NCBI GenBank assembly: GCA_016630905.1
Contig: WBMQ01000012.1
Span: forward strand, 1,054,001 to 1,118,000
Origin: Capillidium heterosporum
Lineage: Eukaryota > Entomophthoromycota > Entomophthoromycetes > Entomophthorales > Capillidiaceae
Direction of reading: 5' to 3'
Length of the DNA stretch: 64,000 nucleotides
The notes below the pieces were generated by a model. It worked only from the letters and a program-made list of their open reading frames with translations. It was not told the origin of the DNA and made no database searches. Each line of letters starts with the position of its first letter. Positions within the stretch are counted from its first letter, which is position 1. Shown piece after piece: positions 15,922 to 42,919 of the stretch. Made by a program: the position numbers and the translations under genes.

Positions 15922-17680
15922 TCAATACAAATCCTCCGTCAGTATCACGTTGGCATCTTCACCAACTCGACTTAACGAGGACGGACTTACCGAATCGAGT
16001 TCAGCGGGGGTGAAGTCATCGATGGAGTAGCCTTGAATCTTGAGGACCTTGATGAAATCTTTAGTTTCCAAGGCCCGAGGTTTCAACTCCAAATTGCTGA
16101 GCTCCGAACTATCGTTCCCCGAATTCATGTTGGAACGGTGATGCCCGGCCATGTCAATCCCTTTCATAAACTCACGCACTGGGATCATAGCTGCTTCACG
16201 GCATAGTTCCTTGAGGTCGCTACCTGTTAAAGTTAGTGGTAGTAAAGGTAGGGAGAGATACCAGTCATTCCGGAAGTCATCTTGGCGATCTTTTCTATAT
16301 CTAAATTGGTCTTGGGTTCAACTTTGGCTAGAAACTTTGGAATTTGGTTAGAAATGTTGGAATGGTAGACTTACCAAGCTTAAAATCTGGATACGCTGTT
16401 CCTCCTTAGGTGGGGCGATGTTGAAACGTTTAGGCATACGACGCAAGATAGCAGAATCTAATTTTTGCAAAAAGGTAAGTCAAAGTTAATTGCCATCACT
16501 ACCTATTTCTAAAGGACGATTGGTAGCACCAAGAATCTAAAGTTGAGTTAGTAAGGAACTTTAGATTGAAAATGGTGACCAGAATCTGAGTATCGGGACC
16601 GGAGACTAACCCATCCCAAAGACTAGATAGATTTAAGTAGATGGAAATTCAATAAAAACTTACGTCATAAATTCAGCTTTGATAGTAGCGTTGACTTCAT
16701 GGTCGGAGGAGCTTCGCTCCCTAAGGAAACAGTCAATCTCATCGACAAAGATAATACAGGGTTGCATCTTCTTGGCCAAGGAGAAGAGAGCAGCCACCAG
16801 CTTATTGCTCTCTCCAAACTATAAAAATCGATACAAAAAGTAATAAGTATACTAAAATTTTAAATAAAAGATTACCCATTTGTCAGTCATAGTGGATACA
16901 CGCATATGTATTTACAATATAAAAAGTTAAGGATATAGGGGTTAAATAAACAAGCAATAAAATATACAAAAGGATATTGAGAAAGGTAGCGCCCGATTCC
17001 TTAGCTAAACATTTAGCTAACATAGTTTTGCCACAGCCTATAGACATGCGAATAAGTACAATACATTGAAACTAAAATAGTACCGGGAGGTCCGTACAGC
17101 AGTACACCTTTAGGTGGACCCAATAAATCGTTACTACCGTTGAATACGTCGGGGTAGCGTAGTGGGTAGATAACTGTCTCCTTCAAATCTTCAACTATAT
17201 TTTCTAAACCTATAGTTTCGATTGGATATGAAGTAAAACTTGTAAATTTTAAATATTGTATAAATCAAAGTACCGCCAATATCTATTTAAGAATTATAAG
17301 TTTAATTTAGGTTCATTTAAAAAGTTACCTTCAAATGTCACTTTTATGTCATCGGGATGGATCAACTCGGTTGCAATAATATGTTCGTGGTCGGTTAACT
17401 CCAGTCCCTTTTTCTAAAAAATACACATTGTAAGTTTCAAATTTAATTTAAAAAATACTCCCAACTTTTCCAAAGCCTTTAGCGCCTTATCTTTAGCAGC
17501 TTTCTTAGTGTTGCTAGTTGGGTCCAATTGCTTGAAGACGTACTTCAATCCATAAAAGAATATAACGTTGGTAACTATAAATAAAGCGGCTACAAAATAT
17601 ATTTTTAATTAGCTAACTTTGTCAAATGTCTTTCAGTTGTAGATACCTTCGGCTACAAATTTGTTCCTTGGACTCATCAT
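15922..17680 (-). CDS. MSP1: Msp1/ATAD1 AAA-ATPase, mitochondrial/peroxisomal outer-membrane extractase
   Basis: Msp1 pulls mislocalised tail-anchored proteins out of the outer membrane. Thirteen exons (minus): 17680-17647, 17589-17459, 17413-17329, 17282-17274, 17209-17084, 17037-16978, 16907-16876, 16818-16664, 16622-16580, 16536-16503, 16457-16375, 16334-16262 and 16223-15922, giving 388 residues. Features in order: N-terminal membrane helix ([16 protein letters not shown]), DIGGLENI, Walker A GPPGCGKT (about 126-133), pore loop 1 DKWFGES, Walker [10 protein letters not shown] (about 183-188), sensor GATNRP, arginine-finger block [19 protein letters not shown], then the Leu/Lys C-helix region. 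Exon 4 is only 9 nt. Intron 6 is an AT-AC intron with U12-type signals, while all others fit GT-AG. Intron 9 has a weak donor GTCACC with a strong TACTAAC box. Intron 11 must end at the CAAAG, since the nearer TAG breaks the frame. Confidence 0.95.
16908..16977 (-). other. U12-type AT-AC intron in MSP1
   Basis: The intron starts ATATCCTTTT at 16977, has TCCTTAAC at 16933-16926, and ends AAATAC at 16908; it is 70 nt long. Removing it joins CTC A to AT ATG CGT, giving [13 protein letters not shown], which aligns without gap to the Msp1/ATAD1 region before the DKWYGES pore loop. Keeping it shifts the frame into a stop. No AG dinucleotide exists from the donor through the exon start, so no GT-AG solution is available. 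Confidence 0.85.
17274..17282 (-). other. 9-nt microexon of MSP1
   Basis: ATATTGGCG, flanked by TAG on its 5' side and GTACTT on its 3' side, encodes the middle of the conserved EDIGGL motif. Without it the motif would lose three residues (Asp-Ile-Gly) although the frame would stay open. Confidence 0.85.
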
Positions 17681-38208: not shown

Positions 38209-39652
38209 ATGTCATTATCTATCATTAATATAGCTATTCTGGGAATAGCCATCATAGCAATTTACAGCATCTACTGCTTTATAAAGGTACCAAAAAATGT
38301 AAGCCACTTCCCCAGGCTATCTTTATTAGACGGATTGTGCAAGCCTCTTTTCCAACCGATCATACCTCGAGAAGACATTAGAACAGAACACCAAGTTTTT
38401 TTACAAAGACAGCGGACTGTACTTGAAGTTCGACATGAACGAATGGAATGTCTTCATTACATCTCCCGAACTGGTTCGCACCATTTTGAAGGAAACTGAT
38501 ATCTACCCCAAAATCATACCCAGTGAGTGATTTCCGACCTGCCTACTGGGTAAATTTTTAGGATAGAATGTCATACTCAGCAACGGAGACATGTGGAAGC
38601 ACTATCGTAAGTTGGTATCAGCCCCATTCAAGAAGGAGTTCCACCCAACTTTGTTCAAAGCCAAGTTCGACCAGCTGCAAGGCATATTGGAACTAGAGAA
38701 AAACGAGTGGATCGATGTCAACAGACTGATGCAGAAGATCACTATGGACACGCTAGGCATCAGCATCCTAGGTGTCGACTTTGATTTTTTAGATAAAGAC
38801 AAAGTACCGTTCATAGAGAGCTACAACAAGGTGATCCAAGTAGCAGCTCAACCCTTGTACCTACTGCTCCCCATCCTCGATAAATCTTACAACCCGTTCC
38901 GATCAGAAGGCTTCAAGGCTTTAGACGATTTGACCAAACAACTACAAGACTTACTTGATGCCAAAAGACAGAACTTGGAAGCCAATCGTGACAAACCCAA
39001 CATAGCTAAGGATATACTGACTTTGCTACTGGAAGGAAACCTGAACGCGGGGCTAAGTGATAATGAGATCATCAGCAACCTTTTAATATTCATTTTGGCT
39101 GGTCACGATACGGTAACACTCTTCTTGTCGACTGCTTTACACTTGCTATCCACTCATTTGAAAGCTCAAGACGAGCTACGTCGTGAGTTGAACGAAAATA
39201 TTGAAGATGAGGATAACATCAACTCACAAAAGTTGAAATCGCTACCCTACTTGGACGCCATTTTGAACGAAGTTTTGCGGCTTTACTCACCGATCACACC
39301 ACTACCCCACCGCATAGTTTCTGAGGACACTCAGCTGAACGGCTACTTCGTACCCAAAGGTACTAAAATCATATTGGACCTTCTCAACATGCAGCGTAAC
39401 CCATCTAACTTCGAGGATCCTCACAAGTTTATTCCAGAACGATTTTTAGATGGTTGTAGTAAAGGGTACATGGCCCCCTTCGGCGACTTCTCTAGAAAAT
39501 GTCTAGGTATGAACTACGCCAAGATGCAGCTCAAATTTTGGTTAGCCAAGTTGGTGATGAACTATAAATTGGAACCAAATGGTAAAGGTTTACGATTTGA
39601 AAAAAGCCATTTCAAGGTAGAGGAGCTCTGGTTGAAGTTTGTGAAGTTATAG
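38209..39652 (+). pseudogene. Cytochrome P450, copy 1, disrupted by one frameshift and two stops
   Basis: The frame starts with a membrane anchor (MSLSIINIAILGIAIIAIYSIYCF) and a Pro-rich hinge (KVPKNVSHFPRL). At about 38400, next to a run of seven T, coding continues one base out of frame (KDSGLYLKFDMNEWNVFITSPELV). TGA at 38528-38530 and TAG at 38564-38566 then interrupt it; the second copy has TGC (Cys) and CAG (Gln) at these sites. From 38591 to 39652 the frame is intact: I-helix LAGHDTV, K-helix EVLRLYSP, PERFLD and heme loop FGDFSRKCLG. In the heme loop the usual Gly of FxxGxRxCxG is Phe, as in copy 2. This is a recent pseudogene, or an allele with sequencing errors. The long 3' frame could still be expressed. 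Confidence 0.8.
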
Positions 39653-40629: not shown

Positions 40630-42082
40630 ATGCCATCCTATATCATCAACTTAGCTATTCTGGGAATAGCCATCACAGCAATTTACAGCTTATATCGATT
40701 CTTTAAGGTACCAAAAAATCCTAAGTCATCTCCCTAGGCTACCTTTACTAGATGGATTTTGTAGCCTATTTTCCAATCGATCTATCCTTGAGAAGATGTT
40801 AGAGCAGAACGCCAAGCTGGATGCTTGCAGCAGTGGCAACAGGATATATCTAAAGTTCAATCTAGTCGAGTGGAGTGTAGTTGTTACTTCTCCCGAGCTA
40901 GTACAATCCGTATTAAAGGATACTGAAACTTACCCGAAGACTGTACCCAGTGAATGCTTCCCAACCAGTCTTCTGGGCAAGTTCCTTGGGCAGAACGTTT
41001 TCTTTAGCAATGGTGAAATGTGGCGGCGCCAACGTAAGCTGATTTCACCACCCTTCAAGAAGGAGTTCACTTTGGCAGCGTTTGAAGGTAAGTCCAATCA
41101 GCTGGGGAGAATCCTGAATCGATTGGGAGACGACCATATTGAAGTCAACAAACTTATGCAAAAGGTAACCATGGACATGTTGGGGATCAGTCTCCTAGGT
41201 GTCGACTTTGACTTCCTGGAGCGGGACAATGTGCCGTTCATAGAGAACTACAACAAGGCCTTCGAGTACGCGATCCAGCCACTGTACCTGTTCCTTCCTT
41301 TTTTGGACAAACCTTGCAACCCGTTTAGATCGGAAGGCTTCAAAGCCCTGGACGACCTGACTAGACAGTTGCAAGATCTACTAAATGCTAAAAGGCAAAA
41401 CTTAGAAATCAACTTGGACAAGCCCAATGTAGCCAAGGATATTGTGACCTTGCTGCTAGAAGGAAATTTGAACGCAAAGTTGACGGACTGTGAACTTATT
41501 GACAACCTGCTTATATTTCTGGTAGGTGGCCACGACACGGTAACCTTCTTCTTATCGACCGCCCTACACCTCTTATCCACTCATCAAGAAGTTCAAAGTA
41601 AGTTACGTCATGAGTTAAAGAAATGCGTTAGTTATGATAAGGATATCGACTTGCACAAGTTGAAGTCGTTGCCCTACCTGGATGCCGTTTTGAACGAGGT
41701 TCTACGACTTTACCCACCAGTCACCCCAATACCCCACCGCATAGTCACTAAAGATACAAATCTCGGTGGATATATCATCCCCAAAGGCACAAAAATAATT
41801 TTAGATATCTTTAGCATGCAGCGCTGCCAATCCAACTTCGAGGATCCTCACAAATTTATGCCAGAGCGGTTTTTGGATAGTCAAGGTAAGGGGTACATGG
41901 CCCCCTTTGGTGATTTTTCTAGAAGATGCCTGGGTATCAACTATGCCAAAGTACAACTCAAGTTTTGGTTGACCAAGTTGGTAGCCAACTATCAGGTGGA
42001 ACCGGACTCTAAAGGCCTGTGTTTTGATAAGAGCTACTTCAAAGTGGAGGAACTTTGGTTAAAGTTCGTCAAGTTGGAGTAG
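40630..42082 (+). pseudogene. Cytochrome P450, copy 2, with an N-terminal frameshift
   Basis: ATG at 40630 opens an anchor (MPSYIINLAILGIAITAIYS) nearly identical to copy 1, then after KVPKN one extra base (about 40718) throws it out of frame to TAG at 40735-40737. In the next frame LSHLPRLPLLDGFCSLF continues, and an uninterrupted frame from 40796 runs to 42082 with all P450 landmarks: LVGGHDTV, EVLRLYPP, FMPERFLD, FGDFSRRCLGINYA. Start at 40796 would lack the ER anchor and so is probably not the native start. If the extra base is a sequencing error the gene is intact, about 483 residues. Family: an ER-bound microsomal P450 of the CYP4/CYP52 kind by general look; I do not assign a subfamily or substrate. 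Confidence 0.75.
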
Positions 42083-42458: not shown

Positions 42459-42530
42459 GCCTCTTTAGCTCAGGGGCAGAGCGTTCCCCTAGTAAGGGAA
42501 AGGCCACTGGTTCGATTCCGGTAAGAGGCA
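42459..42530 (+). tRNA. tRNA-Thr(AGU), copy 1
   Basis: 72 nt, no intron. Acceptor arm GCCTCTT/AAGAGGC, D arm AGCTC/GAGC, anticodon arm TTCCC-CTAGTAA-GGGAA (anticodon AGU), T arm CTGG-TTCGATT-CCGG. The second copy is 389 bp downstream. Confidence 0.93.
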
Positions 42531-42847: not shown

Positions 42848-42919
42848 GCCTCTTTAGCTCAGGGGCAGAGCGTTCCCCTAGTAAGGGAAAGGTCACTGGT
42901 TCGATTCCGGTAAGAGGCA
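42848..42919 (+). tRNA. tRNA-Thr(AGU), copy 2
   Basis: Identical to copy 1 except one C-to-T change in the variable region (AAGGCCACTGG becomes AAGGTCACTGG). Both copies are preceded by TTAGCCTC-like sequence, consistent with a local duplication or gene conversion. Confidence 0.93.

Follow-up and report, generated by a model that had tools for sequence, protein, structure and literature searches.

Whether an intron that begins with AT and ends with AC is evidence of a minor spliceosome surviving in a fungus is the question raised by one gene in the window, that is, the whole 64-kb stretch of DNA analyzed here. The gene encodes Msp1, the outer mitochondrial membrane AAA ATPase that serves in mitochondrial quality control, and its fifth intron had been proposed to be of the U12 type. 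Here, we consider the intron itself, its counterparts elsewhere in the assembly, and the RNAs and proteins that would be needed to remove them.

The exceptional intron of MSP1

The MSP1 gene model (15922..17680, minus strand) comprises 12 exons and 11 introns and encodes 385 amino acids. Its product carries a Pfam AAA domain (9.4e-37), and its best solved relatives are Msp1/ATAD1-type translocases. Ten of the 11 introns are GT-AG, the exception being intron 5; intron 8 (window 16579-16537) has an unusual major-type 5′ site, GTCACC.

Intron 5 (16908..16977, minus strand, phase 1), predicted to be a U12-type AT-AC intron, lies between exon 5 (16978..17037) and exon 6 (16876..16907). Its 5′ splice site, ATATCCTTTT (16968..16977), agrees exactly, read from 16977 to 16968, with the U12-type AT-AC sequence /ATATCCTTT, and its branch-site motif, TCCTTAAC (16926..16933), which ends 18 nt before the end of the intron, is close to the TCCTTRAC expected near the 3′ end. 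The 3′ splice site is AC (16908..16909). The coordinates and sequence of the original prediction were confirmed on the minus strand, as were the length of 70 nt (not a multiple of 3), both motifs, the AC terminus, and the absence of AG throughout the intron.

Splicing at the terminal AC would restore the coding frame, as judged from the Msp1 alignment across the junction. The joined exons 5 and 6 give a 21-residue segment that aligns without gaps over the junction to solved Msp1/ATAD1-type proteins, for example, FISIRMSSIMDKWYGESNK, which bears out the claim that removing the intron restores an Msp1 segment. Were the intron retained, the frame would stay open within it but be shifted, so that translation would end at a stop codon in the exon that follows. 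Between 17037 and 16819, we tried 35 alternative GT/GC-AG pairs spanning 30-200 nt, of which none yielded the conserved Msp1 peptide.

The origin of the DNA matters for the interpretation. The nearest named relative of the Msp1 protein is that of Neoconidiobolus thromboides, and the next two named rows are Rhizoctonia solani and Massospora, with Entomophthora, represented by a partial protein, lower among the best 120 of the 8000 candidates scored. The nearest Elp1 proteins are those of Neoconidiobolus and Massospora, and in a quick Elp1 tree of 31 rows the window joins these two (SH-aLRT 99), albeit on a long branch, and stands apart from the five rows of Ascomycota and Basidiomycota. The fungus, therefore, probably belongs beside the Entomophthorales (Zoopagomycota); an origin in the Dikarya was rejected as less likely on the Msp1 ranking together with the Elp1 ranking and tree. 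The original prediction had remarked that survival of the minor spliceosome would be notable if the genome came from Dikarya, a remark that does not apply here since the Msp1 ranking and the Elp1 tree point to Neoconidiobolus and Massospora.

One of these relatives may share the intron. The annotated Msp1 of Massospora cicadina (P0004) reads GAAFINILFLPLHVTGLRWQYGESNK (GAAFINILF...); Neoconidiobolus and Entomophthora read FINMRVSTLTDKW / FINMRVSTLTDKWYGESNK. Because AAT ATC CTT TT translates as N-I-L-F, the protein suggests that Massospora MSP1 has a ATATCCTTTT intron at the same position, through which the gene predictor read. Gene predictors that recognize only GT-AG introns will break such genes, of which the Massospora record seems to be an example.

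Elsewhere in the window, two neighboring and mutually similar open frames (38591-39652 and 40796-42082) look cytochrome P450-like by eye, and two tRNA genes with equal Rfam scores (42459-42530 and 42848-42919) are found 389 bases apart.

Similar introns across the assembly

The original prediction had proposed a scan for further introns with ATATCC and CCTTRAC. We searched the assembly (29.5 Mb, 44 contigs) and estimated chance occurrence by first-order Markov simulation of the 64-kb window (300 runs, both strands). The pattern ATATCCTTN{20,50}CCTTAAC is expected 0.01 times per 64 kb, that is, 4.6 times when scaled to the genome; it was found 28 times, versus three times for the reversed pattern used as a control. 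The full ATATCCTTTT is present in 19 of these 28 matches, which represent 18 distinct sites, one copy being found in identical form on contigs C22 and C23. The matches on C22, a contig of 38 kb, recur close to the end of C23 (C22:13900-18000, C23:3054300-3058400), so that C22 may represent a duplication or an alternative haplotype. The scan thus delivered 18 distinct ATATCCTTTT...CCTTAAC sites, 17 of them resolved as AT-AC introns.

The nine matches without the TTTT extension were left out, possibly at the cost of a real intron. Four of them are identical copies of one stretch starting ATATCCTTCCTATAGAACCC (C9:89528, C10:38016, C13:10073, and C13:45653), which looks like a repeat rather than an intron. 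In two further searches, GTATCCTT with the same CCTTAAC branch occurs at three places versus one in the control, and the relaxed TATCCTTTTN{20,50}CTTAAC has 28 genome matches versus eight in the control. The best-looking new match to the relaxed pattern (C32:2365428) was rejected, as it is preceded by T and lies in stop-rich sequence.

Seventeen of the 18 distinct sites, MSP1 included, could be placed as AT-AC introns by reading frame, the frame being chosen by eye; L008 is the exception. The 17 introns are 60-83 nt long and end in an AC located 10-27 nt past the branch motif; nine are in phase 1, six in phase 0, and two in phase 2. In 12 of the 17, a retained intron would itself supply a stop. 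Of the other five, two (L014 and L022) have lengths that are multiples of 3 and contain no stop, so that the case for their removal rests on domain alignments. At least one AG occurs inside 13 of the 17 introns, the systematic test of in-frame AG acceptors having covered MSP1 only, and in L023 an AG located three bases before the chosen end could serve as the acceptor instead.

In eight of the 17, an above-cut-off Pfam domain spans the junction, the genes being MSP1, CLP1, ICMT, XPG, a lipid-droplet hydrolase (LDAH), a lipoate ligase, a gene of syntaxin-6 type, and ChAPs. Two more have weak, sub-cut-off domain matches (eIF2B type and TNPO3 type), and one, in a Rab-like gene, has a domain match only past the junction and was left out of the support. 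For the genes of the remaining six, no Pfam family was found at E <= 0.01.

With strict motifs, we count 17 AT-AC introns versus two GT-AG introns, a count from which degenerate GT-AG minor introns could be missing because it rests on those strict motifs. The two GT-AG introns with both motifs lie in a muskelin gene, where a domain spans the junction, and in a FHIT-like gene, where the intron adjoins an apparent 5-nt exon (by eye). Their branch-to-acceptor distances are long (27 and 32 nt, respectively), and both may, therefore, be major introns. In the FHIT-like gene (C32 near 600081), the apparent exon, TGGTC, lies between a GT-AG intron and the GTATCC...CCTTAAC...AG intron, and the join reads, by eye, PIVSGHVLV.

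The genome thus appears to keep a small set of minor introns with strict motifs, nearly all of them AT-AC. Human minor introns are 26% (PMC10639083) or 24% (PMC8280824) AT-AC in the portions of these sources consulted. The probability of drawing at least 17 AT-AC introns among 19 is 1e-8 if 26% are AT-AC, and 0.15 if 77% are.

One explanation of this bias, which we regard as possible though doubtful, is that the lineage shed most of its minor introns and kept about 20, almost exclusively AT-AC and with strict motifs, and that its minor spliceosome became specialized for AT-AC introns, with U12, U4atac, and the proteins diverged or reduced. In human cells, splicing of the AT-AC subtype depends on CENATAC. 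If the explanation is true, an AT-AC-specialized minor spliceosome would provide a natural test case for the persistence of this subtype. A small AT-AC-biased set would represent an intermediate state.

RNAs and proteins of the minor spliceosome

A search for the machinery had also been proposed. Here, the RNA-family searches of the genome scored 39-48 of 1208-2155 candidates. A U11 snRNA gene is present at C32:604887-605085 (59.5 bits, E 3.7e-9), above the Rfam cut-off of 39, with a TATA-like stretch upstream (by eye); among 14 control genomes, three had U11 matches at E <= 10 and none exceeded the cut-off. A second locus, C6:224221-224337, is probably a U6atac gene: its score of 28.7 bits (E 4e-4) falls just short of the cut-off (33), no match was seen in any of the 14 control genomes, the key motif AGGAGAGA is in place, and five T follow 46 nt downstream. 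Both U11 and the U6atac candidate are able to pair with the 5′ site of the intron, a comparison made without a shuffle control.

The picture for U12 is less clear. Rfam gave no genome match at E <= 0.001; at E <= 10 there were six, all below the cut-off of 53, and seven of the 14 control genomes also matched. The best two, both weak, are C12:2620866 (27.6 bits) and C41:1204507 (22.6 bits). We examined these two of the six and rescanned a third, L066, which gave no U12 at E <= 1. A pattern search with GTAAGGAN{38,66}ATTTTTG had 30 matches versus 26 in the control, that is, no signal. Of the two examined, L064 is the better in pairing with the extended branch site: at positions -1 to -4 it scores 13, 10, 14, and 8 of 18, versus 4, 8, 17, and 9 of 18 for L065. 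By eye, however, L064 shows no clear Sm site. L065 contains AATTTTAG, and one of its folds preserves the 5′ stem along with two more hairpins. Pairing with the U6atac candidate resembled that of shuffled sequences, 974 and 1060 of 2000 shuffles being as good. Neither is convincing on every test, and neither was chosen as U12.

For U4atac, Rfam gave no match in the genome at E <= 1, a search whose sensitivity in this lineage has no positive control. A motif complementary to the U6atac candidate had 19 matches versus 37 in the control, none convincing by eye, and an Rfam scan of four loci from this search found no U4atac.

Proteins were searched exon by exon with single human queries for RNPC3 (65K) and ZCRB1 (31K). 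The RNPC3 query had one match. It lies in an open frame of 594 codons, which matches the ZCRB1 query twice as well; this frame was taken, without being read out, as a PABP-like protein and rejected. The ZCRB1 query had 21 matches, and the two best, once read out, were rejected because one resembles a glycine-rich RNA-binding protein and the other a CstF-64-like protein. Among the matches inspected, all were thus other RRM proteins, and no orthologue of RNPC3 or ZCRB1 was recognized. These negative results for U12, U4atac, and the proteins are weak because few RNA candidates were scored, the proteins were searched exon by exon, and MSP1 suggests that exons are short. At least part of a minor spliceosome thus appears to be present: U11 stands above its cut-off, U6atac just below, and U12 is weak, while searches that might readily have overlooked them did not find U4atac, RNPC3, or ZCRB1.

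Competing readings and known minor-intron sets

We consider it very probable that window 16908-16977 is a true U12-type AT-AC intron and that a minor spliceosome has survived to excise it, the splicing being predicted from the DNA. This is the reading of the original prediction, and it is supported by the intron's own motifs, the 17 further distinct sites (16 of them resolved as AT-AC), the U11 gene, and the near-cut-off U6atac. From established knowledge of the minor spliceosome, U11 would pair with ATATCCTTTT and U12 with TCCTTAAC, bulging the branch adenosine; U11 would then give way to U6atac at the 5′ site, after which the exons would be joined at the AC. We infer splicing at the other sites in the same way, together with the presence of U12 and U4atac and the participation of minor-spliceosome proteins.

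U2-type AT-AC introns exist, and intron 5 might be a rare one handled by the major spliceosome, its U12-like motifs being remnants or chance. The uncertain U12 and the failure to find U4atac, RNPC3, or ZCRB1 would suit this reading, but we judge it very unlikely: the motif pair occurs at 28 places versus three in the control (18 distinct with ATATCCTTTT), genes for U11 and, probably, U6atac are present, and motifs so strict are not expected after loss of the minor spliceosome. Unlikelier still is a mis-modeled exon boundary or an assembly error, with some other GT-AG arrangement in use. Intron 5 is predicted from the DNA sequence; none of the 35 alternative pairs gives the conserved peptide, and the identical signature interrupts other conserved genes.

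A further possibility, compatible with the best explanation, is that the intron is of the U12 type and is spliced inefficiently or in a regulated manner, retention lowering Msp1. The frameshift into a stop in the next exon would fit, as would the relatively high basal retention of AT-AN minor introns reported for human cells in the part of PMC8280824 consulted; we nevertheless hold this to be rather improbable.

On the U12-type reading of intron 5, a credible minor spliceosome can be added for one more fungal lineage outside the Dikarya, this one beside the Entomophthorales. The finding belongs to a known kind because PMC10639083, in the sections consulted, documents minor introns in the phylum; the AT-AC bias is the less expected feature. 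The same sections give 249 minor introns for Basidiobolus meristosporus (Zoopagomycota) and 205 for Rhizophagus irregularis, describe a pronounced loss of minor introns in the zoopagomycete ancestor, and list no convincing minor introns in Ascomycota and Basidiomycota; the strings "conidiobol" and "entomophth" are absent from the main text. The introns here resemble those of Rhizophagus and Basidiobolus in that their 5′ sites and branch motifs are of the minor type, phase 1 is the most frequent (9 of 17), and minor snRNA genes accompany them. Unlike in those fungi, the set is smaller by strict motifs (18 distinct sites) and almost all AT-AC, although counts from our strict motifs and from those authors' classifier are not like for like.

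An AT-AC majority is shared with Blastocystis, for which the consulted text of PMC10639083 gives 77% (196 of 253 minor introns), but Blastocystis is only distantly related and has far more introns of this kind; 49% are in phase 0 there, compared with six of 17 here. Closer in scale are Rhizopus and Phycomyces, credited with small minor-intron sets in the part of PMC2846911 consulted, with nine AT-AC and eight GT-AG introns in Phycomyces by one method and eight and 12, respectively, by the other. Like these, the present set is a small zygomycete one that includes both AT-AC and GT-AG types; unlike these, in which the subtypes are near balance, it is biased toward AT-AC.
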